64,000 nt of DNA from Nigrospora sphaerica (lineage: Eukaryota; Ascomycota; Sordariomycetes; Amphisphaeriales; Apiosporaceae): positions 186,001 through 250,000 of the forward strand of contig JAGVVL010000021.1 of the NCBI GenBank assembly GCA_018287875.1, given 5' to 3'. The position numbers and the translations under genes are program-made. The first letter of the stretch is position 1. Every line of letters begins with the position of its first letter. Under the pieces are notes generated by a model. It was not told the origin of the DNA. It saw nothing but the letters and a program-made list of their open reading frames with translations, and did no database searches. Shown here one piece after another: positions 985-24,328 of the stretch.

Positions 985-2590
985 ATGCGGCGAAAGAGTG
1001 ACGAGAACAACATAATCCTAGCCTGCCAGGCTATGGAAAAAGATCCCAAGCTAAGCGCTAGGCCGCCGCAGCGGTGTATAATGTTGATTTCAGTACACTT
1101 TGTCGCCGGCGGCGCGGTCAATCGTCACGACAAGATTCTAGGACTAACTCACGAAAACTTACGGATCTAGAAGAAAGGACGATAGTGCAATACGTCCTTG
1201 ACCTCGATGCACGCGCATTCCCCCCAGGCTCGTTGGGGTGGAAGCAATGGCAAATCAGCTACTACGCGACCGTGACGCGCCACCCGTCGGAAAGAACTGG
1301 ATGTCAAACTTCGTAAAGCGACAACCACAGCTCCAGACGCGTTTCTTTCGCAAGTACGATTATAAGAGAGCCCAATGCGAAGATCCAGACGCGTTAAAAG
1401 CGTGGTTTCGGCTTGTACGGAACATCGTCGCCAAGTATGGCGTGCACGACGCCGATGTTTACAATTTCGACGAGACTGGTTTCATGATGGGTATTATCTC
1501 CACCGGCATGGTGGTGACCAACTCTGGAAAATGCGAAAGACCTAAAGCCGTTCAGCAAGGGAACCGAGAATGGGTCACGGTTATCCAAGGCGTCAATTCC
1601 CAAGGCTGGGCGATCCCGCCATACATCATTGTCGCTGGCAAATTTCACCTCGCTTCGTGGTACGAAGACAGCAAACTACCGAAGGATTGGCGCATCGCGG
1701 TAAGCGATAACGGCTGGACGACAAATGAGAGAGGCCTAGAATGGATTCAGCACTTCGACCAGCATACCAGAGGGCGTACGAAAGGGATTTATCGTCTTCT
1801 TATTCTCGACGGCCACGAGAGTCATCATTCAACCGAGTTCGAACTCTACTGCCAGGAAAACAAGATCATCACCTTATGCATGCCTGCTCACTCATCCCAT
1901 CTCCTTCAGCCACTCGATGTCGGTTGCTTTGGCCCGCTAAAGAAAGCCTACGGTCGGCAGATCGAGGTTTTAATGCGGAGGCATGTCACCCACATAACGA
2001 AGGCCGATTTCTTTCCGGCCTTCTGTAGGGCATTCAAGGACGCCTTTACGACTCAAAACATACAAGGGGTTTCCGCGGGGCTGGACTTGTCCCTATGGAC
2101 CCAGAAAGCGTGATCGCAAAGCTGGATGTGAAGCTGCGTACGCCAACACCGCCCGAGTCGATCCCGGAGCTGCCCCTACCTTGGATGTCTAAAACCCCCG
2201 ACAACCCGGTTGAGACGGTATCGCAGACACAGTATATCAAAAACCGAATCTCCCGCCATCAGAACAGCTCACCGACATCGATTTATCGATCTATTGACCA
2301 GCTCGCGAAAGGGACACAGGGGATTATGCACCAGGTCGCGCTCCTTCGGTCAGAGGTACAAGACCTTCGTCAAGCTAATGAGATGCTGAGTAAGCGTCGC
2401 AGAGCTAAAAAGACACGTTTACGTCAAGGAGGCTCCCTTACTTTACAAGAGGGACAAGATCTTATAGCTCCCGACAGATCTCGGAAGCAACAAGAGGAGG
2501 AAGAGGATGGAAGTTGTATCGTTGTCGGAGGGGTTCAGCCTAGGAAACAGCAGTGTAGGCGATGCGGAAATAAGGGACATAATCCAGAGG
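985..2590 (+). pseudogene. Fot1/pogo-type DDE transposase, copy A (frameshifted)
   Basis: Transposase of the Tc1-mariner/pogo superfamily, Fot1-like, which moves a DNA element by cut and paste at TA. Reading starts near the ATG at 985 with a psq-like HTH (degraded), changes frame near 1050-1240 (CENP-B-like HTH), then stays open from 1238 to 2113 over the DDE core: Asn-Phe-Asp-Glu-Thr-Gly (first D), Leu-Asp-Gly-His-Glu-Ser-His (second D) and Gln-Pro-Leu-Asp-Val-Gly-Cys-Phe-Gly (third D), spaced DD35D. Another shift near 2095 leads to a basic coiled-coil tail and a Cys-x2-Cys-x4-His zinc-knuckle start at about 2550-2580 that is broken before its last cysteine. At least three frameshifts make it non-functional. 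No terminal inverted repeats were found. It is a diverged paralogue of the copy at 31585-33440, whose tail has the complete knuckle. Confidence 0.85.
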
Positions 2591-2599
2591 CCGAGCTCG

Positions 2600-2900
2600 A
2601 GCTATTGCCAGGCGACACAAAGACGCGCCTGCCTTATGGCGGGAAGGCGAGAGGCAGAAAACTACGACACCATTCTGGGGTCCATGTCGGTAGAACAGCG
2701 GAAGGCACCGTCTCCGTCGCCCGCGTGGGAACCAGGAAAATATAGCAGCGAGAATCGGTCGCCGTGGGTGTTCTCGGCCGAAAAGAGGAGGAGGACGCGG
2801 AGGGATTCGACAGCGTTGGTCTCCGGGGGCGGTCGCCTGATTCCTCCAATGGGGAAGACATACGGCCATTGCCCACGACACTGACGCCGCGAATCCGCGC
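2600..2900 (+). pseudogene. Nuclease-kinase family gene fragment (linker region)
   Basis: Relic of the same family as the gene at 54806-56778. The segment encodes, with changes of frame, the Asp-Glu-Arg-Arg-like/Asn-Tyr-Asp-Thr-Ile-Leu-Gly-Ser-Met helix, the Glu-Gln-Arg-Lys-Ala-Pro stretch, the Trp-Glu-Pro-x-x-Tyr-Ser-Ser-Glu motif, a basic Lys-Arg-Arg-Arg-Thr-Arg run and the start of the Pro-Asp-Ser-Ser acidic patch. This matches about 55590-55830. Neither the upstream nuclease nor the downstream kinase is present. It directly abuts the broken zinc knuckle of the transposase at 985-2590, so the two were joined by recombination or insertion. Confidence 0.6.
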
Positions 2901-3440
2901 TTTCGTGTTAGCGGGCCCTTCACACAACGCCGTAAGCAGCCACTCCACGTTCGCGAGCGGCCTCTTGAGCTCTTGGTTTTCTCTTCGAAGTATCTGGATT
3001 AGAGACTCTCCAGGATTAGCGTTAAAGACGCATCGCGCATTAACCCTGCGACAGACTTGGCAGGCTGGCCTTTGGCCATCACACTATAAAATGAGCCTGC
3101 GGCTTCCATCATTAAACATTGAAGGGGTTGGCGACAAACTTTGACCTTTTTCGTGTGATACCGACTAAAAGCCTAGGGGCCGTGTGTATTTAAGTAGTGG
3201 AAGCGCTCTCCAACTCTCGATCCACCGTTGCCCTAAGCTTCTCGAAGGATTGGGCTATAGTCAACGGTCGGTTGTCTCTGTACCGCCAAGTATTGCTTTG
3301 CGGACCAAAATCTCGTCAACTATTATTTTCTTGGTGCACACCACATAGGTATGGCGAGCCATAGACGTCCAGGCCGCCCCATCAATGGCCTCATCTTGGT
3401 GCGGCAGTGCCGTCACGAGAGCCAACAGCCGTTCCTTTCA
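2901..3440. other. Intergenic, nothing recognised
   Basis: Short open frames only; no motif, intron pattern or repeat that I can support on either strand. Confidence 0.5.
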
Positions 3441-6060
3441 CTATTTTCCCAGGGAGTAGAGCGCGTTCAACATCGTCCAACACCACAATGCCGTGGCATC
3501 AACGTCTTTTAGATCCTCAATCCAATCAATGTAGAGAGACGTGGTCTTCTTGGCGTCTATGTCGAACCGCTCTCCCAGTTGCGTCGCGCGGATGCGTATG
3601 AGAATCGGGACCTGCTGGGAAAGGTGCAGTATAATCAGGTTTACCAGAAGGTTCTGCGACCAACAGAACAAGCAGGGCACCAGTCGCTTCTGGTCCCGTA
3701 CAGGAGAGATAGTGATGGGCCAAAGGACTGAGGCGCCTGTATTAGCATGATAGCGCAAGATAAGGAAGCAACCCAAAGGGGTGCCGCGCCTTGACTGCTT
3801 ACGGATACTCTCAAGGGCGATAGCAACACCCTCGACATCTTTGTGGGTCATGCTTTCAGGATAGTGAAGCGCCTTGTACAAATATGGCCGGTGAACGAGA
3901 TACCTCACGTAGTAATACCTGGTCCGGAGTATGGCCAACTGAATATCGCCGGCAGCTGTGTAAATTTTGAGGTCGGCCGTAAAAACGTCGCTGTTGGACA
4001 GGCCTGAAATGGGCGACGAAAAGGCTGGCTTTGCTAGAGTCGACGTGTTCTCACCGTGGTCTTCTTGCCAGCAGAGATAAGACGGCAGCATCCCGCGCCA
4101 CTGATCGAGCTGCATAGACAGCTGTTTGATAGTCACTGCCAACGCCTGTGTCTCTATGGTCCTGGGTACTTCGTGGTTCTGTTAGTGCCAAGTGGCGGTG
4201 GATGGGCCCAAAATACCAGGGGTACCTCTCCAAGCCAGGCCCCAAGACAACACAACATACCCTCGCTCAAGGTCGTGTGGAACTCGACCAATAGCCTGCG
4301 AAGCGCTATCTGGGACGCAAAGTGCTCCCGTGAATGCGAGGTTTGGCGCCCTACGTAGTCGTCTTCAGAGAAGGAACTGACGCTGAAATCCGGTAAGCCA
4401 ACAAGACTCTCAAACTTGTCCAGCCCTGTAAGGGGAATATCAAACTCGAGGTTTAGATAGCTGCCCAAGGGGTTAGTCGCCGCTGGCATAGGGTAGCGAG
4501 GGAGCGGTACGTTTCCATCATGCTGCAGTGCCAGAACAGCCTGCGAATGAGATCGGCACGGTGCGATGTTAGTTCCTCTGGGTGGCTGTCGTGGTTGGTT
4601 GACGCAATTAGTCAAGAAGAACCGACCGCCGAGAAGGGGGAACCTAGGAGGATCACTTGCCTTGTCAGCAGCGCCTGGCATGCCAGCGATGCCGAAACCG
4701 TCATACGCCAGAAGTCCTATGCCCCGCGAGTTAGCTAAGGACATGTCCAAGGCGAGATAACTGGGGTCTAGATGCGTACCGTGTGGCAACAACAGCTTTG
4801 GTAATAGAGACTCCACCGGGGGTCAGTCGAAGTGTTGATTTCTGCTGTAGGCAGACAGAGGGAGGGGGAAAGGAGAGCAGGTGGGTGGTGGCTTACGAGG
4901 CTAGTGCAAGGACCTGCACATTTTCAATACTGCATTGCGTGAGACAAAATCCTAGCCGGCTTCTCGCTTGGTTAAAGAGGGCGAGCCCCGGAGGCCGCTC
5001 CAGCGTGCCGCCCTTTACACCGCTTCGCTGGGTCAAAGGATTCCCTTGAATGCCAGCTATGGCAACTTCGCCCAGTGCCATGACCAGAAAGGCAAGCGTT
5101 GCGTTGGTGCCCTCGCTGAACCCGCTGCTTGCCACGGAAGAAAGTGTTTCGGTTTGGAACAGATCGCGGTCCATGATGGGATAGAGGCGGTTGAAAGTGT
5201 CAAAGTATGCCTTGCTAAAGTGATGTACGCCCTCCCAGTTCATCGAAAACGACGCCAGACGCAGATTGCCAGAGGGGTGGTTAGTTTCCAGCACGCCATT
5301 AAGCGAATGCGTCCCGTCCGTACCCAGGACGCTGCCGACCGTATCCACGGGCAGGGAGATGACACGGGCGTGTAGGCCTAGGATCACCGCCGGTCCGTTC
5401 TCTTTCAAGAGAGGCGCCAGGTTTACGCCGGGGTGCTTGGAGGACTCCAATGTTTTTTGTAAAAGGGCCAGGAAAGCACTTTGTAGGCTGCCGAGGCATA
5501 CACGTAGTGCGTTTGGTGGGAGGGGCCCGTCGCTGCCGCCGGGGTTTGCCCATCGGTGGGTGCTACCCACGCCCTGGAGTGAGCCGAGTCCGGGGCATAC
5601 GACGACTCGGCCAGTATGGCTTTCTGGCAAGGCTCGAGGCCGGTAAGGGGCAATGCGCCGCGAAGGTTGATGCTATTGACCTTTCCATCGAGATTTCGGA
5701 CGTCTCCTTCGAGATTCTTGATGCGATCTAATATCTCCACAAGAATCTTATCCTTCCTGTCGGTTGTCAGCTCATGGCTCACGGGGTTGATGGCCACCAC
5801 CTCGCGTCGCGTCACGTCGCGTCATGCGTAGCGGGCATGACTGCTGTCCCAGGGTCCTCGCTTACTTGGTGGGTTGGGGCTCGCGGTATCTGCACTCAAG
5901 CTACGGCCGTTAACGGATTGCATTGGACCGAGAGGGGGAACCGTGTCGCACATTCATGCGCTGACAGGCGATGCACTTGGGGCGGTCCTCGGAGCATCGT
6001 TGTTTCCTCTGTTGTGGTCCGTCAAGATCAGTCGGGGCTCGAAGGAGAGGTGGACGTTTA
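3441..6060 (-). pseudogene. Zn2Cys6 fungal transcription factor, decayed
   Basis: Successive minus-strand frames read as one fungal-specific regulator. At about 5950-6030 lies a partial binuclear zinc cluster (Arg-Lys-Gln-Arg-Cys-Ser-Glu-Asp-Arg-Pro-Lys-Cys-Ile-Ala-Cys-Gln) whose first two cysteines are missing. Then come a Lys/Asp/Leu coiled-coil dimerisation segment (about 5700-5770), a linker and the middle homology region: the Tyr-Phe-Asp-Thr-Phe-Asn-x-Leu-Tyr-Pro-Ile-Met-Asp motif near 5180 and the Arg-Tyr-Tyr-Tyr-Val-Arg-Tyr-Leu-Val-His-Arg-Pro motif near 3900. The stop is at 3441. At least four frame changes interrupt it; one or two could be unrecognised introns (for example around 4830-4900), but the loss of zinc ligands argues for a pseudogene. 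Such factors activate metabolic genes; the target is unknown. Confidence 0.7.
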
Positions 6061-6579: not shown

Positions 6580-7881
6580 CTGAGGTGGCGCGAAGACGCG
6601 ACCAAGGCGGCCCGTGCCGAGGAATCAATTGTGGTGGGGTCGCCAAGCTCAAACGCGACGACCATCGCGAAGCCCGCCACGGTGGCCAGCAGACGATCAA
6701 ACCGCGCGACGAAGCCGACAGCCAAAATCTAAGAGAAAGCGAACCGAGACGCAGAAGACGGTGGAGAAGCCGGGACACCCGAACCGACCGAGAAGAGCCG
6801 CGATGGCGGCGCCGCTAGGACGTACCTCCAGAAGATCCTGGAGCTCGTCGCGCACTCCCGAACCGAGATCCAAGACTTGAAGCAGATGGTGGTTGCCCAG
6901 AGCGACACGATCCAGGAGATAAACCAACGATACGAAGCGTCGCAGAACGAGAGCCGGCAGCTCTCGAGCGAGCTACAGCGAATTTGAAAACAATTAGAGG
7001 ACATTTAGAACAGCCCGGCCCTCCACGCCAGCGCCCAGACCAGCCCTCAAGCATCGTACGCGGAGATCGCGCGAACGCCGCCGACGAGCCAGCCCAGCAA
7101 CGTCCGCACCCTTAGCTCGATGAACACGATACCAGCTTCGTTCACCGACACATTGTACTGCACTATTGATACATCCCACCTGGGAGACGACGAACGAGCC
7201 AACGTCTCAGCCGGTACGGTCCTAAATGCCATCGAGAAGGAGATCCGAGCAATGGAGGGGCACAAAGAGTGGCGATGCCGCGCGGTCATGACGGACCCTA
7301 GGAAGCCGCAACAGATCAAGATTATCTGCCGCGACGAAACTGAGCACCAACTGGTGAAGCGAACCGCGGAGATGACAGCCATCCCTGGGGCGCGCGTGTT
7401 ACGAGACGAACTGTATCCGATTAATGTGGATAGCGTGAAGCGCACGGCGGTCCTGGACGAAAACGACCAGCTACGAGCTGGCGCGGCCGAAGCGTTTGGG
7501 CAAGAGAACGAAACAACGGTGGCCAAAATCGTGTGGCTAAGCAAGGACAACATGAATGCATACGGCTCGATGGTCGTCTACCTAATGAAGGCGGCCGACG
7601 CCCGTCGATTCCTAAATGAGGGTTTCTTCCACGCCGGAGGCGAATCGGGCTACACCCGAGCATTCGAGCGGCGCAACCGGCCGGAGCAGTGCTACAACTG
7701 CCAGCAGGTCGGACACAAGGCCTTCCAATGCAAGAACGCGCAGACCTGTGGACGATGCGCGAAGCAGGGCCACAGTCATCGCGGTTGCGAAGAGCCCGTA
7801 CTGAAGTGCGTCCCATGCGGAGGCCCACATGAATCGTTCAGCCGGAACTGTCCGAAGCTCTACCCAACACGACATGAGTAA
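6580..7881 (+). pseudogene. LINE-A ORF1 (Gag-like, zinc knuckles)
   Basis: Nucleic-acid-binding ORF1 protein of a Tad-like LINE. One frame runs from about 6580 to the TAA at 7879-7881, with in-frame stops TAA at 6730, TGA at 6985 and TAG at 7006. A Glu/Gln/Leu-rich coiled coil occupies about 6830-7010. After 7120 the frame is clean: an RRM-like core, then at about 7690-7860 three zinc knuckles starting Cys-Tyr-Asn-Cys-Gln-Gln-Val-Gly-His, ending in a Cys-x2-Cys-Gly-Gly-Pro-His motif. All three stops can be explained by C-to-T change from CAA, CGA and CAG. ORF2 begins at 7874, overlapping the ORF1 stop by 8 bases. Confidence 0.8.
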
Positions 7882-8246
7882 AACGTGTCGCATGATCCAA
7901 TACAACGTAAGGAAGCAAGGACCAGTGCTGGACAGCCTCATGAACGACGAAACGATACGGGACGCAACATTTATAGCGATACAAGAACCACACGCGAGGA
8001 AGATTCAGGGACGGATCCTCACGACACCTATGGGGCACCAGGAATGGGTCAGAATGACCCCGACCCTATGCCGAGAGGGACGACGGGCCATCCGGAGCAT
8101 GCTCTAAATCAACAAACATGTGGAGGTGGAGCAGGTCCCCATTTCCTCTCCCGATTTAACGGCAGCGATCATACGGCTCGCCGAGCGAACGATCCTGGTG
8201 GTGTCTGCCTATGTGCCGGTGGTGGAGGTTCAGGCGCTTAAAGACA
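6580..8246 (+). mobile_element. Non-LTR retrotransposon (LINE-A), 3'-truncated
   Basis: Contains the Gag-like ORF1 and only the first part of the endonuclease of ORF2; the rest, including reverse transcriptase, is absent because an LTR starts at 8247. The endonuclease part reads from 7874, with Ile-Gln-Glu-Pro-His at about 7980 and a later Val-Val-Ser-Ala-Tyr-Val-Pro motif near 8200, interrupted by a stop near 8105. Tad/I-like placement rests on the zinc-knuckle ORF1 and the apurinic-type endonuclease. Confidence 0.8.
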
Positions 8247-8421
8247 TGTCGCACTGAAGGGGGCCGTGGGAAGCGAAAGGTTCAAGGTTATCCATTAGAA
8301 AGGACAAAAGAAAGGGCCAGACATGGCAGATTATATACTCGTAGCTGGGGATCGCTCCCCACATGATCCATAGGGCCTACTGTAGTTCACAGTAGCTCCT
8401 CACGTGACCTGATAGGCGAAA
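8247..8421 (-). repeat. Old solo LTR, left part (remainder at 15619-15642)
   Basis: Begins with TGTCGCACTGAAGG and is clearly homologous to the 199-bp LTRs at 8422 and 15415 but carries several substitutions and a one-base insertion. Its missing last 24 bases (CTAGTGATAGCC...GCCAC) lie at 15619-15642, on the far side of the young copia element. The younger element therefore inserted into an older LTR of its own family. No target duplication around the old LTR could be seen. Confidence 0.85.
8417..8421. repeat. Target-site duplication, left (CGAAA)
   Basis: CGAAA here and at 15614-15618 flank the copia element exactly at its TG...CA ends, a 5-bp duplication typical of copia integration. Confidence 0.9.
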
Positions 8422-8620
8422 TGTCGCACTGAAGGAGGCGTGGGAAGCGAAAGGTTCAAGGTTATCCATTAGAAAGGACAAAAGAAAGTGCCAGAGATGG
8501 CAGACTATATACTCGTAGCTGGGGACCGCTCCCCACATGCTCCATAGGACCTACTGCAGGTACCAGTAGCTCCTCACGTGATCTCAGGGGCGAAACTAGT
8601 GATAGCCTCATATTGCCACA
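8422..8620 (-). repeat. Copia 3' LTR
   Basis: 199 bp, TGTCGC...GCCACA on the plus strand, identical by eye to the LTR at 15415-15613. The polypurine tract abuts its inner end. Confidence 0.95.
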
Positions 8621-8629
8621 CACCCCCTC
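8621..8629 (-). other. Polypurine tract of the copia element
   Basis: On the minus strand the bases next to the 3' LTR read GAGGGGGTG, a short purine run in the position expected for plus-strand DNA priming. Confidence 0.6.
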
Positions 8630-9097
8630 AGCGGACGTTCCATCGTTCGCTGACCCTCTGTTGGCCTCCTTTAGCTGCTTGTGCCGGTTCCCATGCGAGG
8701 GTTTAATTGTCCCTGCAGTTTTGGCTCGGTTAGTAGCTTGCCAGTCGTCCTGCAGAGCGTCAGTTGCGGTTCGATTGTCCTTAAGGTGAGGACAATGGCC
8801 AGTCCTCCCAGGCGACATCATTATTCGAGATGCTATTGTTCGCGCTGGGTATTGAGCCTCAGAGGCTGCAGACAGCATTAATAGCTGGAGTCTGTCGCTG
8901 GCTGCGCCCGCGTTCCTGTTTCTTTTCTTATCCATCCCTAGATCGTCGTGCGTCTCCCCATCTGTTGTCTCGCCAGCTTCGTTGGCGACGGTGATGCTGA
9001 CTGTCGCTCGTGAAGCCTTCTCGCGTGCGCGCACACACACACACATCCACCTCGCTGGTCGAGGTCTCTCCCATCCGACGCCATCACCACCACCACC

Positions 9098-10047
9098 ATG
9101 TCCGCCGGTCAGTATCTTCTCAGGACTTCTCCACAGCCGCCACTGACATCGTGTAGCTGTTTTGTCCTCTTCCGGTGGTCTGCCTCCTGGCGACGGCGGT
9201 GCAGGTAAGCCCCTGGCCGCGGCCATGAGAAGGAGCGCGTGGAGGTCCCCTCCAGCAGCGACGACGAGTCCGACTCGGAGATCGCGCGCGCCAGGGAGCT
9301 CCTGCGCCGTCACAACAAGAAGAAGCGTGCTGCCAAGGCTGCCGGCAAGCTCGACAAGCTCGCCGAGCGACGTTCCGAGGCCGCCCTGCGGCGCACCAAG
9401 GGGCTGCTCGCTTCACTCCGTGCGAGCAGTGCACGCTGTCGCTCCTGCGGGGCCCTCGTGGCCACTGCCATGGCACTGCTCTCGCAGGCAGCTCCCGGTG
9501 CTTTGATTGTGTACGCCATAATCACACGTATGTGGTCTCTCCTCTCAAGCTATAGACTTGGTGTTGACGTCTTCTGTAGCTGCAGAGAGCTCCCGGAGGC
9601 TGCGCGAGCTCCGGCTCGTCACCTCTTTCGGGCCTTTTTGCGCCCTGCAGATCAGTACCGCCAAGTGAGTGCCTTGACTATTGTCGCTCTGGATCCGTGC
9701 TGACAAGTTATAGGCGCTGGTCGATAATCTTCGCGCCACCGTGCGCATGCTTCTGGAGATCGCCAACATGGGCGACCACCATTCGTTGTCCGGTGTCGCT
9801 TCTGCCGCCCCCGCTGACGCTCCTCCCCTTCCCCGGAGCCGGACACGCCGTCCGAGAGCACCCTTCGGGGCCGAAAGAAGATCAGCAAGAAGGGCAAGAA
9901 GGAAAGGGCGTCGCTTCTGTCGACGTTGGCGCCGCCTCCGTCGCTCACGAGGAGGCACGGGAGGCTAGCGAGTCGCTGGCCGACATCCTGGCCGACCTGT
10001 CGGACCTCGTGAGCGACGAGGTCGAGGGCGGCGAGGAGGAGGAGTAG
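9098..10047 (+). pseudogene. Intron-bearing passenger gene antisense inside the copia element
   Basis: Lies between pol and the 3' LTR, opposite to the retroelement. A CA/CT-rich leader and a good context (CACCACCATGTCC) precede the ATG at 9098. Three segments have textbook fungal intron form on the plus strand: 9108-9156 (GTCAGT, CACTGAC, GTAG; 49 nt), 9528-9579 (GTATGT, TTGAC, GTAG; 52 nt) and 9665-9713 (GTGAGT, GCTGAC, ATAG; 49 nt). The product would be a Ser/Gly N terminus, an acidic Ser-Ser-Asp-Asp-Glu patch, a Lys/Arg/Ala-rich helix (9290-9400), a Cys-Arg-Ser-Cys-Gly pair with a hydrophobic helix (9435-9527), an Arg/Leu-rich segment, and a Lys-rich then strongly acidic C terminus ending in Glu residues at 10047. 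Single-base shifts near 9225, 9664 and 9840 break the frame. I do not recognise the family. The introns would not be removed from the sense retroelement RNA, which explains how they persist. Confidence 0.65.
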
Positions 10048-10193
10048 AGGTGTAAGGCCTGTGGGGCGAAAGCCCGGATATCTTTTATTGTTTCGCCCGT
10101 CAGGGCTGATACCCAGTGTTGCTTTGCACGTTTTGCCCGCCGCTGGTCGGTCAGGGGGTGTCCCAGCTGGCTGGGCCCCGGAATTGAACCGTC

Positions 10194-13100
10194 TTAACTT
10201 CTAACAGCCTTCTCCTGCTTCTCCGTTACCTGTCGTATGTCTTGTAGGTTAAGAAGGGTCCTGAAGTGCTCAAACTTTGCCCTGCTTAGGTTCTTTGTCA
10301 ATCCGTCGGCTGGCATGTCCTTTGTGGCAAGATACGTCAGTTGGAACGCTCCTCGAGCGTATTCCTGGCGCAGCCATAGGTTGTGGATGTCCACATGGCG
10401 TAGCTTGGTAGATATCCTTTCGCTGCTACCGATCACGAGGCGAATCGTCTGCTGGTTATCGCAGGCTATGCTGAACGGAGTGTCCAAGACCAATTGGATA
10501 TCTCTGAAAAGGCGCTTCAGGGCTACCGTTTCCTTTGCTGCCTCACTGAGGGCCAGTAACTCGGCTTCAGTGGTAGAGGTGGTCACCGTAGCTTGTCGGC
10601 TTGCTTTCCAAACGACTGGTCCTCCGAATAGCTGGATGAGGTATCCCTGAGACGACTTCCTGGTGTCTAGATCGTCTGCGAAGGATGCGTCCGTCGAAAT
10701 CGCTATGGCTTGAGGAGCCGTCTGGTGTATCAATGGCTTCCCGTAGCGTATGGACACGAATCTCGTGCTATAGGCGTAGCGAATACACCAATCTGCCGCG
10801 TCTAAATGGTCTTGAGAGGGATTCGTCAGATGTCGAGATAGCTGCGAGGCTGCGTATGCCAAGTCCGGTCTGACCATAATAGCGCTGTAGAGGATGCTTC
10901 CGACGCGCTCCTGAAAAGCCTGAATCCTGTGCTTCGGAGCCACCCCCGAGTGCGTCTTGAGTGGCATCTGCGGAAGCGGCGTCGCTGGGGTTCTCCCTTG
11001 GTGAAGATTGAAGCGTTTGGCGACCTTCTCGAGATAGGCGTCGTGGCATAGCCAAAGGAGACCGTCTTGTAGCTCGCGAACGACCCTAACACCAAGGTAG
11101 TAGTTGACTTCGCCTTGGTCCTTCAGCTCATACGCTCTTTTCAGCGCTTCAATGAGTCTTAGGGCTTCGTCTCGCTTGTCAGGCCTGTTACAGACGAGAA
11201 AGTCATCCACGTAGAACACCACAAGGATGGTGCGCTCCTTATTGTGGTATAGGCATGGTTCCTCTGGAGAGGACCGAAGCCCGAGCTTCTCGAGGGTGCT
11301 TGAGAAGTCCCTGAACCATAGAAGAGGCGATTCTCGTAGCCCGTAAAGAGCCCTGAGAAGACGTAGGACGTAGCCCTCTCTCTCGTAGCCTGGTGGATAC
11401 TCCACGTAGATAGGCTCCGCGTCCTTGCTGAAAAGTGCGTTGAGAAAGGCGTTAACCACATCGAACTGTCGTACCTCATATCCGAAGCGCGCCACGATAG
11501 CCATCATGATCCTGAACGACCTGGCAGCTAGAGTAGCTGCGTAGGTGCTCTCAAGAGTGTTGACCATCTGCTTGTCGCCTCTAACGACGATCCTTGCCTT
11601 ACATCGCAGGTGAACGTTATTCTCGTCATACTTGTCGGTGAAAACCCACTTTAAGGGCAGTGTGAAGAGGCCTGGCGTGCGACGTGCTGGTTTCCAGATC
11701 CCCATCTCGTCTGCCTTCTTGATCTCGAGCTTCGTAGCGTTCCTGAAGTCCTCTCCCCTGGGATGAGTAGCTAATTCACGCCAGGAGCGTGGTGGTGAAG
11801 ATAGAGTTCTCCCTTCTTCTTTGGAATCGCTCTCTGTTGCTCTTGATGACCGACACGCCGTAAAGATGCGCGCGTGAACAGTCCTGTGGAGAGAGTCCCC
11901 GTTCTGGAGGACATCTTTCCCTGTGAGGAACGTCCCGAGGAGCGCATTGAGGTGATTAGTCTCCTGCACTTGTATCTCCTCGGGGGTGTATTGGACCGCT
12001 AGGAATGAGTTCTGCGTCCCGTCCCTCCTAATCCTGACTCTCCCGCTCCTCCTCAGTACTGTATCTGCTGAGGGGGTTGGCCGTGCGCGAGGTCTGCGGA
12101 CTCTCTGAGGCTGTTCCCTCTGAGGTCCCTCTGACTCTGGTAGAGCCACTGTGATCGAATCGAGGATCCGATCCTGGTCTGGTGTAGCCCTTGAGGGCGC
12201 TTCGTCAGCTATTCCCTGGCTTACACCTCCACTAGTCGCAGTTGATGGGACTTGTGGATCGCTGGCACCCTCTCCTGTAGTCCCAGGTCCTGGTGTGGAC
12301 TCAGGTGTGAGGGGTGCAGCATGCGCATTCAGTCCGCCAGGCTCATGAGCACCTGACGAGCCTTCAGGAGCGACATCCACCCCCGAGTTCTTGTCGACTG
12401 GTCCCTCGGGAGCGTTGCCTTCCCCTAAGTTCCCAAGGTGAGCTTCTTGGGAGCTTTCAGGACGCAATGCTGTACCGACAATGTCATCTAGCTCCTCGAG
12501 CCTGTTCCAGAGCTGCAGTGTTTCATTTGTGAAGCCTGTCTCGCTCAAAGGGATGTCTCCTGGCTCAACCTGTAGGTACTCTAGCGCCTCAGGGTCCAGC
12601 CGTTCTGACTCTCCTCCCTTATAGAACTGCGTTTCGTCGAATGTGACGTCTCGCGTCTGAATGACCTTGCCGTGCTTTGGCAACCAGATTCTGTAGATAT
12701 TGCTAGCGGCATAGCCTACCAGATATCCTATCTGTGCCCTGTTTTGAACCTTGAACGCTCTGCGGTCTGCCCCAGCGGCGCGTCTTTGGTGAAGGGCGAA
12801 AGCCTTGCATCCGAAGACGTATATACCGCTCCAGTCCGGTCGGAGGTCTGCCTGAGCCTCTCGCAGCTCCTGAGGGCTGTAGTGCGTCTGATTGAGAGAG
12901 AACCATTCGTCTAGCACCTCATTAGGGCTTCGGAAGCGCTGCGACTGAGCTGGGCTCATGTTGATGAGCTTCGTCGCAGCGGTGGTTGACTCTGGCCATA
13001 GCACCTCAGGGAGGCTGGCATGCGATAGCATTTTCAGGGATCGAACAATTATCTCCTGACCAGCTCTCTCAGGGCCTCCGTTCGGCTCGTGTGTGTATGG

Positions 13101-13829
13101 GGGTGAGGTCTGAATCTCTATCCCTTCAGAATCTGCCCAGCGCTCGTATTCGGTCATGCCGTTGATCGCTATCACGCCCTTCTCCCCGTCGTGCTTTAGA
13201 ACACAGAGGTGAAGGTTGTAGCGTCTCAGGACATGCCTCTCGAAGCTTCTGATGATCTTGAATAGCTGGGTATGGCTCTTCGAGGGCGTCGGAAAGGACC
13301 AAAGCTTGCCGCTGTAGTCGTCCTTCAGTACCAGTAGCCACTGGGAACCGTCGTATCCTCTGGGAAAATCGAACAAGTCCCAGAGGACCTTAAAGAACGG
13401 TCTTGAGGCTCTTTCCGTAGGCCGTCGACTGACAACCTTACTGTCATGCGCCAGTCTGCAGACCTCACAGGTCCCCATGGGTTCACCCGCGATACCAACG
13501 TTCTTGCTTCGTTCTGGAAGCATCCTCAGAGCCGTCACACCAAGATGTCCAGTCCTGGCGTGCCACATAGCCTCTGAGTCCTTTCTCACTGCCGGTTTCT
13601 TAACCTGCACATAGCCCGTAGGGGCTCTTCTCACGACTGCAAACGATCGAATCGTTCCTGGCTGTGCTGAGGGGGTTGTGGAGCGATAGAGTAGGAGGAA
13701 TAAAGGGGCTTGTATTCCATGAAGACTAGGTTGCCTATTCTTTGTAACTGCCGCACCACAGCACTGTTCGTGAGCGAACCGACCCTCAGTGTGCAGTCCT
13801 TGCCGCAGTACCAGACACTTGCGTCGCAT
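10194..13829 (-). CDS. pol: Copia Pol: integrase, reverse transcriptase, RNase H
   Basis: A single open frame of 1211 codons. Near the N terminus is the GAG-pre-integrase zinc motif (Trp-His-x-Arg-Thr-Gly-His-Leu-Gly ... Cys-Glu-Val-Cys), then an integrase core (Asp-Asp-Tyr-Ser-Gly at about 13310; Glu-Pro-Asn-Gly-Gly near 13080). A Ser/Pro/Glu-rich spacer follows at 12600-11900. Reverse transcriptase has Gln-Phe-Asp-Val-Val-Asn-Ala-Phe-Leu-Asn (about 11450) and Val-Phe-Tyr-Val-Asp-Asp (about 11210). RNase H has Ser-Thr-Asp-Ala-Ser-Phe (about 10690), Ser-Thr-Thr-Glu-Ala-Glu (about 10560) and Ala-Cys-Asp-Asn-Gln (about 10460). The integrase-before-RT order identifies Ty1/copia. The first ~65 codons overlap gag-protease in another frame; the real junction with protease is probably near 13640-13700. 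Copying of element RNA and integration occur in virus-like particles and the nucleus. Confidence 0.93.
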   Translation of the reverse strand: MRRKCLVLRQGLHTEGRFAHEQCCGAAVTKNRQPSLHGIQAPLFLLLYRSTTPSAQPGTIRSFAVVRRAPTGYVQVKKPAVRKDSEAMWHARTGHLGVTALRMLPERSKNVGIAGEPMGTCEVCRLAHDSKVVSRRPTERASRPFFKVLWDLFDFPRGYDGSQWLLVLKDDYSGKLWSFPTPSKSHTQLFKIIRSFERHVLRRYNLHLCVLKHDGEKGVIAINGMTEYERWADSEGIEIQTSPPYTHEPNGGPERAGQEIIVRSLKMLSHASLPEVLWPESTTAATKLINMSPAQSQRFRSPNEVLDEWFSLNQTHYSPQELREAQADLRPDWSGIYVFGCKAFALHQRRAAGADRRAFKVQNRAQIGYLVGYAASNIYRIWLPKHGKVIQTRDVTFDETQFYKGGESERLDPEALEYLQVEPGDIPLSETGFTNETLQLWNRLEELDDIVGTALRPESSQEAHLGNLGEGNAPEGPVDKNSGVDVAPEGSSGAHEPGGLNAHAAPLTPESTPGPGTTGEGASDPQVPSTATSGGVSQGIADEAPSRATPDQDRILDSITVALPESEGPQREQPQRVRRPRARPTPSADTVLRRSGRVRIRRDGTQNSFLAVQYTPEEIQVQETNHLNALLGTFLTGKDVLQNGDSLHRTVHARIFTACRSSRATESDSKEEGRTLSSPPRSWRELATHPRGEDFRNATKLEIKKADEMGIWKPARRTPGLFTLPLKWVFTDKYDENNVHLRCKARIVVRGDKQMVNTLESTYAATLAARSFRIMMAIVARFGYEVRQFDVVNAFLNALFSKDAEPIYVEYPPGYEREGYVLRLLRALYGLRESPLLWFRDFSSTLEKLGLRSSPEEPCLYHNKERTILVVFYVDDFLVCNRPDKRDEALRLIEALKRAYELKDQGEVNYYLGVRVVRELQDGLLWLCHDAYLEKVAKRFNLHQGRTPATPLPQMPLKTHSGVAPKHRIQAFQERVGSILYSAIMVRPDLAYAASQLSRHLTNPSQDHLDAADWCIRYAYSTRFVSIRYGKPLIHQTAPQAIAISTDASFADDLDTRKSSQGYLIQLFGGPVVWKASRQATVTTSTTEAELLALSEAAKETVALKRLFRDIQLVLDTPFSIACDNQQTIRLVIGSSERISTKLRHVDIHNLWLRQEYARGAFQLTYLATKDMPADGLTKNLSRAKFEHFRTLLNLQDIRQVTEKQEKAVRS

Positions 13830-15255
13830 AGCAGGGACTCCGAGATGATATTGGTGTGGAAACCCTCGACCAAGTCCACGTTGCGTAGCGTGAGGTCCAG
13901 CTTGACACCACCAACACCAAGGAGTGCCCCCTTAATGACGCGTGTGCCGGTGCCTGTGATGCTAAAGGCCGAAGACCCGGCCTCCACCACCCTCCCAGGA
14001 GGTGCCGGAACGAAGGATCCCTCCTGAAGCATGGAGATGTCGTTCACAATGTGAGATGACCCGCAACTGTCGACGACCGTGGATTGCGATAGCGTGTGAG
14101 GGCCCGTAAGCGACGCTACTGCCAGGTTGATGTGCGTATCCATCTGGAATAGCCTTGGATTGATGCCAACAGCTGAGACGTGACTCGTGAGTCCAGCCGA
14201 GGAGTTGTTGGTCCATCCTAGCTTGTCGAGCTCATTTCTGAGCGACTTCCACTTGTTGTCCTTCAGGCGCTCGAGGATCTTCCTGACCTCCGACTGTGGA
14301 ATTGGGTTGAAGGCCCTACCGTCTCTGAGGGGGCCTGCAGAGCCCCTGACGGCGTATTCCAGTCTTCTGCAATCTGTGGGCCTCCACTTATGAGGCCATC
14401 TTAGATTGCAAGGGCACTTTGACTTTCCGCTAGCTGACGAGGAGTCTTGGTCTGCGATGCCGGTTCCGCCTAGCGTTGCGAACGATCGTTGTTTAGCTCC
14501 TGGTAGCGTCCCAGAACTGACTTGCTCCATGAAGATGGCGCTCAGCTCGATTAGCTTCAGGGGCTCCTTGCCAGTGACTTCATCTGCAACGAAGTCGTCT
14601 AGTCGGTTCTGGGCCCACTGGGGAGCGAGTCGCTCCCCGATGGCCTTGAGGAATGTTTTGGCGGCCAGGTTGCCCTCCACCTCTGGTATCTTGTGGTTCT
14701 TGGCCAGCGCATAGGCGGCTGTGAACTCCTGATGCCATGCTTCTGGAGCGACACCGCCTTTTGAAGCGCTTGCCAGGACCGCTTGGTAGCGTTCGCGAAC
14801 AGCTGTCTTGATAGAGGTGTCCGAGGGCTCGTACTGTTTCTTTAGCTCCTTGAGGACGTTCTGGAGCGACTTCTTCGTGTCTGGGCTTTCATCGATACGG
14901 CTGTGAGCAGCCCAGAGATACTCCTTCCTGACAGTGTTCTTGACCCACTGACTGAGAGCGATGTAGTGCTGTTGGAGAGCGTTCCAGTCGTTGATCATGG
15001 CGGAGTACGTCCTTAGTTCGCGTGCGTACGTGCGATCTGCAGCGTCAAGAGCTTTCGTGTCGTTCGTCTCGCTCTCTGGAGGGGCTCTGTAGATAGGCAT
15101 CTCAGGGGGTTCAGGAGGTATTCAGAGGTTGAGGCTTCAGGATCGATGTATGTCCAGATGCGTCGCTCCTCAGCGGCCATGCGAAGCTCATTGTACCATT
15201 CAGGCCAGTCGTATCTTGTGACAAGAGCGACCCGTTGGATCCTAAAGTCGGCCAT
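13631..15255 (-). CDS. gag: Copia Gag-protease (one internal frameshift)
   Basis: Structural Gag and protease. The best start is the ATG at 15255 (Met-Ala-Asp-Phe-Arg-Ile), giving about 45 residues with a Trp-Pro-Glu-Trp-Tyr-Asn-Glu-Leu motif; the frame then shifts near 15125 into the long frame 15100-13631 (489 codons). The latter holds a helical UBN2/Gag-like region (Tyr-Leu-Trp-Ala-Ala-His; Leu-Lys-Lys-Gln-Tyr) and a short basic linker where I see no CCHC knuckle, then the aspartic protease site Val-Val-Asp-Ser-Cys-Gly-Ser-Ser-His-Ile at about 14050-14080. Most copia proteases have Asp-Ser-Gly-Ala there, so Asp-Ser-Cys-Gly is unusual. The C-terminal 66 codons overlap pol in a different frame. 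The two frame changes could be damage, base-calling errors or programmed shifting; I see no classic slippery heptamer. Confidence 0.8.
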
Positions 15256-15403
15256 GGTGGACGTAGCTTGCCAGGCTGGCTGGACTGCTTTAGGGGATTT
15301 GAAAAGAGTTGGACAGTGAGAAAGGGGGTATAAGGTGATTTCCACGCTCTTCAGGCGTCCTGCGCAGCGTCTCTATTGTGAAGTAGAGGTATGCATGCAA
15401 GCC

Positions 15404-15414
15404 GGGCTCATAAC
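15404..15414 (-). other. Primer binding site matching the initiator tRNA-Met anticodon loop
   Basis: Immediately inside the 5' LTR the plus strand reads GGGCTCATAAC, equal to the anticodon stem-loop of eukaryotic initiator tRNA-Met, so the element RNA has its complement. Drosophila copia and several fungal copia elements prime with a 5' half of this tRNA cut in the anticodon loop; the adjacency to the LTR supports the same here. Confidence 0.8.
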
Positions 15415-15613
15415 TGTCGCACTGAAGGAGGCGTGGGAAGCGAAAGGTTCAAGGTTATCCATTAGAAAGGACAAAAGAAAGTGCCAGAGATGGCAGACTA
15501 TATACTCGTAGCTGGGGACCGCTCCCCACATGCTCCATAGGACCTACTGCAGGTACCAGTAGCTCCTCACGTGATCTCAGGGGCGAAACTAGTGATAGCC
15601 TCATATTGCCACA
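15415..15613 (-). repeat. Copia 5' LTR
   Basis: 199 bp with TG...CA ends, identical by eye to the LTR at 8422-8620. As the upstream LTR of a minus-strand element it should drive transcription leftward. It is followed on the right by CGAAA at 15614-15618, the second copy of the target duplication. Confidence 0.95.
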
Positions 15614-15618
15614 CGAAA

Positions 15619-19870: not shown

Positions 19871-22800
19871 CTAGCTGATAAGCTGATTTGCCAGCTGGAA
19901 CATGCCCAGCCTGCCCGAACGGAGTAGCCATCTCGCTATAATCCCTGCTTTCCCGGGGGTGTCGAGCATCCTGTCCGTGTCTATCGGTTCTCCTAGAGCT
20001 TGGACGAGATGATCTCGTCTTCCTCTCTCTCTTGGGCAGAAAACGAGGATATGCCGGACGGTCTCCCTGCCTTGACCGCAGACGCACCAGGGGCTGTCGA
20101 AGCCTGGGACCCTACGCTTAAAAAGGAAGTCTCGCAGCCCAATCTTGCCAGTCCTCGCTTGAACGAGGATGGAGCTCTCCGCCTTATGGAGTCCCTTATG
20201 GAACTTGAGGACGTGCTTGTCTGGCGGCATCTTAGTTGCTGCCGGGGCTCGTGCTGTTCGATTTTGCTGCGTTTGTTGCCATCTTTGGAACCAGTCTCTC
20301 TCCTCAGCCTTGTGTGCTGAGTCTCCAGCTAGCCATTCGTCTAGCCACCTCTTACGATTGGGAGCGTCGGGGCCTTTCAGTCTGCGCCGGCGAGTCGGTC
20401 TTGTTAGGATCCATCTAGCTGCGCTATCGCATCTCGCTTGGATGAGTGATGCGATACGCGGCTGTTGGAGCCTCTCTTCCGATGCCGCCACCCTTCTGTT
20501 GAGCCACGTGTCTAAGGGGGACACGTAAGCTTCCGTTTCTAGTACTGCGGTGGCCGTGGCTTTGAAAGCTCCTGTGACTTTTCGGAGGCACTCTGTCTGG
20601 ACGTCGTTGAGTGCCTTGGCTCTATTTTTCGAGATTTGGCGGTGCCACTCTGAAGCTCCATAGCCTATCGCAGACCGTACGACGGCTGTATAGACTTGGC
20701 GGGCTCGCTGGAGAGACGCGCCCCATGTCGAGCCGGCTATCCGGTCTAGAGCATAGACCTGCGTCGCCATCTTCTTCGATATCGACTGGATGTGGACGTC
20801 CCAGCGGAGATGTTTATCCACCTGGATGCCAAGGACGCGGCAGGAGTCTTCTGGTTCGATTTCGTGACCTTCTAAGGCTATCTTTGTGTCCGGACCTTTC
20901 CGTCTTCGAGAGAAGTGGACTAGGTGATATTTCTGGACTGCAAAGGTCATGCCGTGGCTGACTGCCCATTCTTTGCAGACCCTATGAGCGGCTTCCAGCC
21001 GCTCGCAGGTCTGCTCGGGGTTTAAGCCGAAGCCCACGAGGTTTGTGTCGTCTGCGAAGGCTATAGTGGCTATCCCTGGTACGGCGCGAAGAGCCTTATA
21101 GAGACCGGCTGTATAGAGGCAGAAGAGGATAGGCGATAGGGGTGAGCCCTGCGGGACGCCTGCCGGGACTGGGATCTCGTCCGATTCCTGGCCGTCGAAG
21201 AATAGCGTCGTGGACCGGTTAGATAGGAAGCTTCGGATCCAGTTGATAGTCCATATAGGGACCCTTAGCGCTCGCAGGTTAGCGAGAAGCCTTCCATGGT
21301 CGACCGAGTCGAAAGCGCCCGAAATATCCAGCGATAGAAGGCTTGCTGCGCCTCCATGTTTCCAGGCTGTGCGGACTAGGTCCGTTAGCAACCGCAAGGC
21401 CGTTTCCGTGGAGCGGCCTTTCCGGTTGCCCATCTGTTCGTCCGGGAGCAGTCCGTTCTCTTCGGCAAAGCTAGCTAGCCGTTGCGCTAGTAGGCTCTCG
21501 ATCGCTTTCTCTATAGTGTTAAGCAGCGCGATAGGTCTCCATCCGCCGGCTTGGTGGTACTCGTTTGGCTGCTTTCCTGGCTTCCGGAGGATAACAGAGG
21601 GGCTTTCCTAGGCGTTTAAGGAATCCGTTCGGAAGCTGGTCTGGTCCAGGTGCCTTCCACTGGCCTGCCTTAGTAAGGACGTCTTGGACTTGTTCTGCTG
21701 TGACCTTGCCGTCCATATCGAGAGGCGCTGCGAGCCGGCTCGTTGTTCGGAAGCCGGTGTACGTAGCCTTAGGGAGGGATAGAACCTCTCTCGAAAGGCC
21801 TCTGCTTTCTCCTTATGGGTCGTTGCTTCGCCTCGCGGTGTGTAGAGCGTAGGGACGGCTGGAGGTAGCGGCGGCGCGGCTCCTTCGGTTCTGGCCCATC
21901 TCGCGATGTTCCAGACGCCAGCTGGCTGGCTAGAGGCCTCGTGAAGCATGCCTCTCCAGGTCGCTGTCTTTGCGGTGCGGATCGTTTTCTTTTTCGTAAG
22001 GGATGCTTGCCGAAGGGCTCGCCAGGCTGCGTCTGTCCTGTCGGATAGCCATGCTCGCTGGGCTCGTCTCTCCTCCTCTATAGCTCTTTTTATATCGTGG
22101 TTCCACCAGGCCTTGCCTCTCCCCTTAGAGTGGCGGAGGGGGCAACTAGGTCGGCTATCCGTGTTAGCTCCTTAGTTAACGTCTCGGTGTAGCTATCGAT
22201 TTCTTCTGGTGTCTCGAGTTGCCCTGGCTGTGGTAGGTATGCCGCCTCTGCCTTCGCTTGGTCGTAGTCAGCTGTTTTCCAGCTGCGTCGTAGCCTGTCT
22301 TGGCGGTCTATACGGGGTCCAGCCACGCGTATCACCTGAGGAGGTGATCGGATCCTGCGTATGGTGCGTATCCGTCATAGGCGACCCGGAGATCGTCTGT
22401 GGCCCAGGCTAGGTCGATCGTAGAGTCTGCGCATCCTTTTCGTGTCCATGTCGGTGTTCCAGGGGGTGATCAGCTGGAGTCTCCAGGATTCTGCTAGCTG
22501 GAGCAGCTTATCAGCTGCCCTATGGGGTCGGACGTTGTATCCTCCCCAGACGGGGTGGTGGACGTTGAAGTCTCCCACGAGGACTGTTCGTCTTGGCTGG
22601 GGTTCGTCATGGAGGGCTTCGATAGCGGGCAGGTCCGATCTGCTGGTGGACCCAGGGGAGGCGAGTATATGCAGACAACCGTTATGGGACCGTCTGGTAG
22701 TTAGATTGTGATGCGACACTTATCTGGCTGCGCATCGTATGTCCACTGCGCTGGGGTGTACTTCTTGTTAACATAGATGCATGCCCTACCTCCCTCGGTT

Positions 22801-22976
22801 GCGTAGAGTAGGTAGTATGGAGAGGATCTCGGGCAGTAGGTGGTCGGCATGTTTGGGTTTCGCCAGGGCTCTTGAATAGCTAGGATGTCGTACTCTTCGG
22901 AGATGGCATCGACTACCGGGATCTGTGCTTTCTTGCTTTTCTGCGTGTTCCAGTGTAGGATCCTTAGCGCTGTCAT
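19871..22976 (-). pseudogene. LINE-B ORF2: endonuclease and reverse transcriptase
   Basis: Begins at the ATG at 22976 with an apurinic-type endonuclease (Leu-His-Trp-Asn-Thr-Gln-Lys-Ser-Lys; Ala-Ile-Gln-Glu-Pro-Trp at about 22875). A TAA at 22701-22703 stands where Gln is expected, and the frame shifts before the Leu-Val-Gly-Asp-Phe-Asn-Val motif at about 22570. More shifts follow between 22375 and 21433. From 21433 to 19871 the frame is open for 520 residues: reverse transcriptase with Leu-Asp-Ile-Ser-Gly-Ala-Phe-Asp (about 21320), Gly-Val-Pro-Gln-Gly-Ser (about 21145) and Ala-Phe-Ala-Asp-Asp-Thr (about 21050), then a C-terminal Cys-Val-Cys-Gly ... His ... Cys zinc motif. I see no RNase H domain between them, unlike the LINE at 41309-45736. 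Confidence 0.88.
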
Positions 22977-22995
22977 GGTCGAGCGTGGATGCTGT

Positions 22996-24328
22996 TCAGT
23001 GTTGACTCCGGTGTTTCGACGTCCATGTTGTCTGTCTCTTCGTGGGTTCTGCTGCGGGCTCTGCCAGTGCTTCTAGTACGGCAGCTGGTTGCTCGACGCT
23101 TCCGCGGCTGTACTGTCTGCCAGTCCTCGGCTGTTGGCTTAGGGGTTCTTGCGAGGGCAGTGCGAATCCTTTCGGTCTCGTGATATAAGTAGCCTTGGCG
23201 ATCTGGACCTGCTCCTGGCGGACTGGACACTCCTTAGACCACGCAGTGTGTGGTCCTCGGCATGCTGGACAGCAGTACCGACTCTTATCCTCGGCTTCTG
23301 GGCATTCTTTGTCGTCATGCTTTGTTGAAGAGCAGAGCCCGCACCTACGTGCGTGGCGGCAGACACGGGCGATATGTCCATAGCGGTAGCAGTGGTAGCA
23401 CTGCTTAAGCTGGGCTCCTTCGGCGAAGGGCTCGCATGGATAGTAGCTATACTGCCAAATAAGGCCGTCTCGGCATAGCTGTTCCGCTTGTTGAACCGTG
23501 GGTACTGCAATATATAGGGCCGTGACCTTCCTAGACGAGGTCTTAGCGTTGCGAGGGAGCTTGGCCTCTAGGACGTCGATAGGGCCGCCGGGCTGGTTCC
23601 GGAGTTGGACTCCTAGCTGCCCTTGGTTCGTCTCTATAGCCTCCTTGTTGATGCCATGGGCCACCACCAGGATCTTTCTCTTCTGGATAGAGGCGTTCTC
23701 TCCGAAGGCCTCGGTGGTCCAGGCCCGGTCAGTTTCCAGCTGTCGCTTCTCTTCTGCTGTCTTGCAGGTAATAGCATAGTCTCCGCTGGGAAGCTTCCGT
23801 GCGGCTATTGCTGTTTCTTTATCTGTTGCTGCGTTAACTTTACGCACGATCTCTTCGTAGGTGCGGCCTTCAGTTCCTGCGGCCTTGACCGTTACCTCCC
23901 GTTCGTGTCGAGGAGGCAGAGTCTTGGCTACCTGGGGGCCCTGGGCGCTGGGGCTGCGGTAAGGGCTGTAGCGGCTGCAGCGTACGTCTTAGGAGCTTTG
24001 ATTTCCTTATAGACAGCTTGTAGCGTGTTCTCGATAGCATTGATACGTCTTTCGACGCTGGGCTGGCTGTTCGATTCCTTAGCCGCTATCTCTAGGACTG
24101 GAATGGCAGCTTGAACTGCTGCGGCTAACGCCGCAATGTTGACTTCACCAGCTAGGAAGCGTTTGAAGTCGTCTATAGTGCTGCGTATATCCTCTGGACT
24201 GCGTCCAGGTGCTGTAATGCTGTCTGGCGATGGTGTTCTTGAGTCCGGAGGTGACGGCTCGGGGGTGGGGCGGGCCTATGGCGGCTCCCACCACCCGCGC
24301 TTTGCCTCGAGGGTGGTGAATCGACCAT
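22996..24328 (-). pseudogene. LINE-B ORF1 (Gag-like)
   Basis: Probable start at the ATG at 24328; the frame fails near 24170 and is recovered at about 23900 (Val-Lys-Ala-Ala-Gly-Thr-Glu-Gly-Arg-Thr-Tyr-Glu, a sequence style common in Tad-like ORF1). The clean part 23847-22996 has an RNA-binding core and three zinc knuckles beginning Cys-Tyr-His-Cys-Tyr-Arg-Tyr-Gly-His at about 23400, ending with Cys-Arg-Gly-Pro-His. ORF2 starts 20 bases downstream. Confidence 0.8.

Follow-up and report, generated by a model that had tools for sequence, protein, structure and literature searches.

Copia elements in the genome of Nigrospora sphaerica very probably carry a real, conserved gene with several introns in antisense, a reading to which we assign a probability of about 0.93 on the basis of sequence comparison. 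The copy from which our study started lies in a window of 64,000 nucleotides, the whole stretch of DNA analysed (C11:186001-250000), and the genome searched comprises 51.6 Mb in 33 contigs. Here the gene sits on the plus strand, opposite to pol, between pol and the 3' LTR. We name the family of the window element F1 and two related families F2 and F3 (names set by this analysis); loci numbered with L were taken from the same genome.

The host element spans positions 8422-15613 of the window on the minus strand and is bounded by a target-site duplication (TSD) of 5 nt, CGAAA, which repeat comparison places at 8417-8421 and 15614-15618. Its 3' LTR (8422-8620, minus strand) and 5' LTR (15415-15613, minus strand) are 199 nt long and identical to each other. 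A polypurine tract assigned by eye, CTGAGGGGGTG on the minus strand, adjoins the 3' LTR at 8621-8631, and by position the minus-strand stretch adjoining the 5' LTR (15394-15414) is the putative primer-binding side. The pol open frame (10194-13931, minus strand, 1245 aa in this copy) contains the Pfam domains RVT_2 (E 2e-36, aa 758-986) and SH3_retrovirus (aa 364-437, above cut-off), together with gag_pre-integrs (aa 116-161) and rve (aa 181-280), both below their cut-offs. The domain order gag_pre-integrs, rve, SH3_retrovirus, RVT_2 is that of copia, and the combination of RVT_2 with upstream integrase-side domains, TG..CA ends of the 199-nt LTRs and a 5-nt TSD (in 11 of 11 copies) characterizes the element as Ty1/copia. 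With identical LTRs and CGAAA on both sides it is young, as the original prediction had it, and recently active; the LTR ends had to be corrected to those given above. A boundary at 201 nt was dropped, as it yielded a 5-nt TSD in no copy and the 3-nt agreement found there pointed to 199 nt. Among the best 120 of 944 protein-database matches to pol, the named relatives include Colletotrichum, Purpureocillium, Hirsutella and Monosporascus, and other filamentous ascomycetes too, which suggests a filamentous ascomycete, perhaps a Sordariomycete, as host. Rfam and tRNA scans of the 64-kb window gave no match.

The surroundings of the insertion are themselves repetitive. A LINE-like element is partly represented at 7009-8247 and includes a plus-strand frame of 290 aa with a CCHC knuckle (7009-7881); it is followed by an older LTR (about 8248-8421), approximately 91% like the LTR of the window element, which directly adjoins the copia element. 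The LTRs of two copia copies that lack the antisense gene, L042 (C12:23700-26300) and L040, likewise adjoin LINE-like frames, and by eye copia may insert repeatedly into LINE copies in this genome. Probes from 2000-3500 and 22000-23500 of the window matched contig C11 at 151507 and 188000 and at 135006, 171492 and 208000, and contig C28 at 19895 and 56374; the spacing of about 36.5 kb on both contigs suggests a tandem array on C11, and C28 (73.3 kb) amounts to about two such units. The copia insertion of the window is present in at least three copies of the unit. The probe from 22000-23500 is itself a dispersed repeat with at least 40 matches.

The antisense gene, all parts of which lie on the plus strand, is preceded by a putative leader and promoter region (8632-9097), in which a CA-repeat and the stretch CTCGCTGGTCGAG are common to F1 and F3; this shared leader and a TATA-like stretch in F2 were recognized by eye, and the region may act as a promoter. 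The start codon at 9098 stands in the context ACCACCACCATG. Exon 1 (9098-9107) is followed by intron 1 (9108-9156; 49 nt, phase 1, GTCAGT..TAG) and by exon 2 (9157-9527), which encodes an acidic patch, a basic stretch and a Cys/His cluster and is frame-shifted in the window copy. Intron 2 (9528-9579; 52 nt, phase 2, GTATGT..TAG) separates it from exon 3 (9580-9664), and intron 3 (9665-9713; 49 nt, phase 0, GTGAGT..TAG) precedes exon 4 (9714-10047), which encodes a Lys-rich and then Glu-rich tail and ends with a stop codon at 10045-10047. Our analysis reproduced the coordinates and splice signals of the opposite-strand gene with its three introns of 49, 52 and 49 nt. The proposal that these introns survive retrotransposition only in this orientation fits the rules of splicing: retrotransposition proceeds from sense RNA, in which the introns read CT..AC and are unspliceable, and therefore they persist.

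A DNA search with positions 9000-10100 returned 27 matches in the genome, 16 of them near full length, with identities of 98-100% (12 copies), 93% (three) and 89% (one). In 15 of these 16 F1 copies the match extends past the gene deep into pol; in L023 it breaks soon past the pol end. All 11 copies with both LTRs in the retrieved stretch have a perfect 5-nt TSD, and ten of the 11 LTR pairs are free of substitutions (L018 has one substitution, L015 one length difference). The window copy, L010 and L015 have a common TSD and 700-nt flanks that are 99.9-100% identical, and hence represent one insertion that was duplicated; counted once, they leave nine independent insertions among the 11 complete copies. 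Given this number and the substitution-free LTR pairs, the gene moves with the element. With the exon bounds of the window copy, GT and AG of intron 1 are kept in all 16 copies and those of all three introns in 14; L019 has lost donor 2 and L023 two acceptors. The stops and missing splice sites of L023, which is more diverged than any other F1 copy, resemble C-to-T decay and give the impression that RIP acted in the past and spared the recent copies.

As read, a single continuous frame (267 aa) is found only in L018 and L019 among the 16 F1 copies; no stop precedes the end in L011 and L014 either, but part of their reading lies in another frame, and the other 12 are interrupted as they stand. 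The RT-RNase H stretch of pol next to the gene contains six stops in L018 and ten in L019, and other, younger F1 copies have stop-free pol stretches and a shifted antisense gene; both observations count against an accessory gene. The spliced frame of the window copy is indeed broken by single-base shifts, which the original prediction had put at three, but these are probably length errors of the assembly in homopolymers and not decay. In a pairwise comparison of eight of the 11 complete copies, the pairs formed by the window copy, L010 and L015 differ by no substitution; their 7-10 indel events over 7.2 kb mostly concern single bases within homopolymer runs of at least three, and such runs make up 12% of the bases. 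Between independent insertions there are 1-33 substitutions, yet only 3-13 indels. Because the indels do not scale with divergence, the shifts look like assembly errors, and the broken frame of the window copy therefore says little about the state of the gene.

Homologues are not confined to the family of the window element. Protein searches of the genome gave 93 matches with the product of L018 and 55 with that of L039, and a search with the last 518 aa of pol gave 88 matches (83 of 114 candidates scored). Pol of F2 is about 74% and that of F3 79-80% identical to F1; the antisense proteins are 37% (F1-F2) and 47% (F1-F3) identical in amino acids and thus rank like the divergence of pol. F2 comprises 16 loci, at 15 of which pol is listed nearby on the opposite strand, the exception being C1:9245563. 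F3 comprises six loci (L033-L037 and C10:54045); pol adjoins the gene in L033-L036, is about 2.3 kb away at C10:54045 and was not found at L037, and in L035 and L036 the match covers the later part of the gene only. Full readings of F2 and F3 were made from one locus each: L034 (F3) encodes 282 aa and has introns of 51, 52 and 53 nt, and L039 (F2) encodes 221 aa and has introns of 58 and 54 nt, where the acceptor of intron 3 is the next AG, picked to hold the frame after a nearer AG gave stops. Intron phases are 1, 2 and 0 in L018 and L034 and 1 and 0 in L039. Introns 1 and 3 are thus kept in position and phase in all three families. Intron 2 is present in F3 (L034) and exactly absent at all 16 F2 loci, where a match of three bases per residue spans its site.

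Both coding stretches are stop-free at nine F2 loci, at one of them from residue 13 on; at C11:813556, one of the nine, the gene stretches accompany an adjoining pol in an open frame of 1793 aa. In L039 and L041, both of F2, about 50 codons remain open past the TAG, with similar sequences, and this open frame is possibly the trace of a longer ancestral protein, of read-through or of a further exon. The search for other copies in the same genome, which the original prediction had put forward, therefore yielded 16 F1 copies as well as F2 and F3 homologues with conserved introns 1 and 3. Conservation across copies had been proposed as the mark of an accessory gene, and three families share the gene; retention in most copies and in related families is also a property of the antisense aORF-3R class.

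Counts after Nei and Gojobori with Fisher tests revealed constraint on the encoded protein. Exons 1-2 of L018 and L021, which represent two F1 subfamilies and were aligned as DNA, differ by 12 synonymous and five non-synonymous changes (pN/pS 0.15, p=1e-4); for L021-L023 the ratio is 0.38 (p=0.03), and L018-L023 alone is not significant (0.46, p=0.06). Between families, the alignments of which were made on protein and favour the gene frame, and the ratios of which saturation makes rough, the core yields 0.41 for L018-L034 (p=8e-8), 0.58 for L018-L039 (p=2e-6) and 0.66 for L034-L039 (p=0.001), and whole genes yield 0.66-0.76 (p 2e-6 to 2e-4). Shifted frames on the same strand, tested in two pairs, gave 1.1-1.9, so that on the gene's own strand non-synonymous changes are short in the gene frame only. 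Of the three sense-strand frames of the L018-L034 core, two gave 1.1 and 2.1 and one reached 0.55 (p=5e-4); weaker constraint in one sense frame is expected because wobble positions are shared, and coding on the sense strand was rejected on account of stops in all three sense frames of L039 exon 2. L018, L034 and L039 have spliced frames free of stops, which exceeds chance: of 5000 random sequences matched in dinucleotides and length, 19, 24 and 19 were stop-free, counts that do not allow for the choice of introns. An absence of coding constraint had been named among the grounds for abandoning the gene; the substitutions point the other way, and what lies between pol and the 3' LTR on the opposite strand has the properties of a coding gene of the aORF-3R class.

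If the element had captured a host gene and carried it along as a passenger, its introns preserved by the antisense orientation, this would explain why the sequence looks like a normal fungal gene with three introns, and antisense capture is a way in which introns would survive. We regard this explanation as unlikely, as the matches to the L018 and L039 proteins include no intact stand-alone homologue in the genome. The check for such a homologue, by which the original prediction wanted to recognize a captured gene, produced only fragments, isolated loci with stops and one relic: the loci without nearby pol, by a pol list that scored 83 of 114 candidates, are poor, L037 and C1:9245563 carrying stops, and L038 (C13:4067000-4070000), an isolated relative, retains the core only, has one Cys of the cluster changed and is not accompanied by pol within the 3 kb examined. 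Selection over three families is likewise unlike a passenger. An ancient capture of a host gene that became useful later could nevertheless stand at the origin of the antisense gene.

Equally improbable, in our estimation, is that the locus is mainly a non-coding antisense regulator, which pairs with genomic RNA of the sense strand and, via small RNAs, modulates or silences the element. Any genomic sense transcript that extends to the 3' LTR spans the antisense gene completely, so that double-stranded RNA is to be expected, and PMC7264820 discusses a role of this kind in plant elements. However, selection at the protein level and the conservation of intron phases need a translated product, to which a non-coding role may be added.

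The gene is not universal among the copia elements of this genome. In L040 (C7; pol 57% like F1) and L042 (C12:26188; pol 74% like F1) the end of pol is followed within about 0.1 kb by LTR-like sequence, as judged by eye; in these single copies of their families, the antisense protein found no match at E up to 10 in L040 and a best match of only E=0.29 in L042. By this comparison the gene is one that was gained or lost within copia lineages of the genome. Because the examined L040 and L042 copies are without it, the gene is not needed for transposition as such.

The predicted product of about 220-280 aa comprises a basic stretch, a cluster of nine Cys/His residues and a charged tail. The cluster, with the pattern CxxC-x10-HCH-x9-CxxC-x4-H-x-C, is invariant in F1, F2 and F3 (C93, C96, H107, C108, H109, C119, C122, H127 and C129 in L018 numbering). 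We take its second half to resemble the CCHC knuckle of retroviruses, with a final gap that is short; the cluster appears to be of a zinc-binding type, and zinc binding by the protein is thus predicted, whereas the basic stretch RRHNKKKRAAKAAGK could be a nuclear signal. The acidic patch, the basic helix (here a basic stretch) and the Lys-rich, then Glu-rich tail of the original description were retained, but that description rested partly on broken frames and saw a Cys pair with a hydrophobic helix where there are nine Cys/His residues. Pfam and NCBIfam gave nothing above cut-off, PDB nothing credible (best E 0.22 and 0.37), and neither PF04195 (TRP28; E up to 1 and 10) nor a bZIP family (Pfam, E up to 1 and 10) was listed for the protein, which leaves motif resemblance as the basis for a possible role with nucleic acids. 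A single-sequence protein search found no outside relative among 8000 scored candidates; the database does contain fungal proteins (pol had 944 matches), though its word-based method could overlook remote relatives. An alignment-based search found one protein, P0121, on a contig of 1523 bases; at 98% identity to the F2 protein it is by sequence near kin of it and no distant relative. Plasmid sequences, where a fungal gene is hardly to be expected, gave no relative.

The missing family match and the distribution of the gene, which some copia families carry and the copies examined from two further families lack, would also suit a separate small element or viral gene that nested in a copia ancestor and was then kept. 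We consider this very unlikely: no repeat pair of at least 30 nt bounds the gene, LTRs aside, and no relative was confirmed in viral contigs searched with two peptide patterns. That the frame is decayed or due to chance and the introns are chance motifs is scarcely credible on sequence grounds, for although the window copy and most F1 copies are shifted and high G+C makes long open frames common (two other exon-2 frames are open in L018), spliced frames are stop-free in three families, intron 2 is exactly absent from F2 and selection is frame-specific.

We prefer to explain the gene as an accessory that a copia lineage has conserved, and its conservation in three families suggests that the element uses the protein for itself. 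Transcription of an antisense mRNA would start from a promoter in the LTR or from one that lies between the 3' LTR and the ATG; the host spliceosome would splice this mRNA, and it would be translated into the Cys/His protein. This protein would then enter the nucleus, bind nucleic acid and regulate the element's own transcription or integration, as has been suggested for antisense genes in other LTR elements. By analogy and motif, we lean towards such an accessory nuclear regulator that acts on transcription or integration. A comparable case is HBZ, which has a spliced form and is a bZIP protein. An independent HBZ-like strategy in a copia lineage, with a spliced antisense gene and a nuclear Cys/His regulator that signals the presence of established copies and exerts feedback on sense expression, is a tentative and rather doubtful extension; the protein would report established copies because its introns are removable only from RNA transcribed off a nuclear DNA copy.

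HBZ of HTLV-1 is, according to PMC11963269, encoded antisense in a retroelement and its product is nuclear; the antisense position is shared with the gene described here, while the nuclear product is a property of HBZ, no bZIP is listed for our protein, and element class and host differ. A fungal case is brtn, which PMC7264820 describes as antisense to gag-pol, between pol and the 3' LTR of Boty in Botrytis cinerea (Zhao et al. 2011, cited in PMC8365987, PMC4227169 and PMC7264820). By this description it is likewise an extra antisense gene of a fungal LTR element, but Boty is of gypsy type (BcGypsy1 in PMC8365987, with a chromodomain in PMC4227169) and the window element is Ty1/copia. Plant examples of the aORF-3R class are Grande gene23, RIRE2, Retand (TRP28, PF04195) and PvRetro13; PMC7264820 and PMC11963269 report an own promoter and a nuclear product for the Grande gene, and describe plant antisense ORFs as of unknown function with proposed regulatory roles. 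Place, orientation and conservation across copies and families agree with our gene; the differences are that the hosts are plants, Retand is gypsy and PF04195 is not matched. The word "intron" is absent from the main text of both papers. No fungal copia with an intron-bearing antisense gene turned up in the titles and abstract beginnings searched, weak evidence of absence given that subscription papers fall mostly outside them. The original statement that none of this type was known in a fungal copia thus holds for copia as far as these sources go, but an antisense gene of a fungal LTR element is known in the gypsy element Boty. Antisense genes at this place are known from plant elements and Boty, and to these the present case adds a variant with several introns in a fungal copia.

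The antisense accessory gene, known from plants and from Boty, can now be studied in a young fungal copia element whose introns serve as clear markers. One genome holds related families that carry the gene and others that lack it, and intron 2 is missing from one family, so that these can be compared directly. Any spliced read would identify antisense transcription beyond question of strand, and the role of such genes would thereby become testable.
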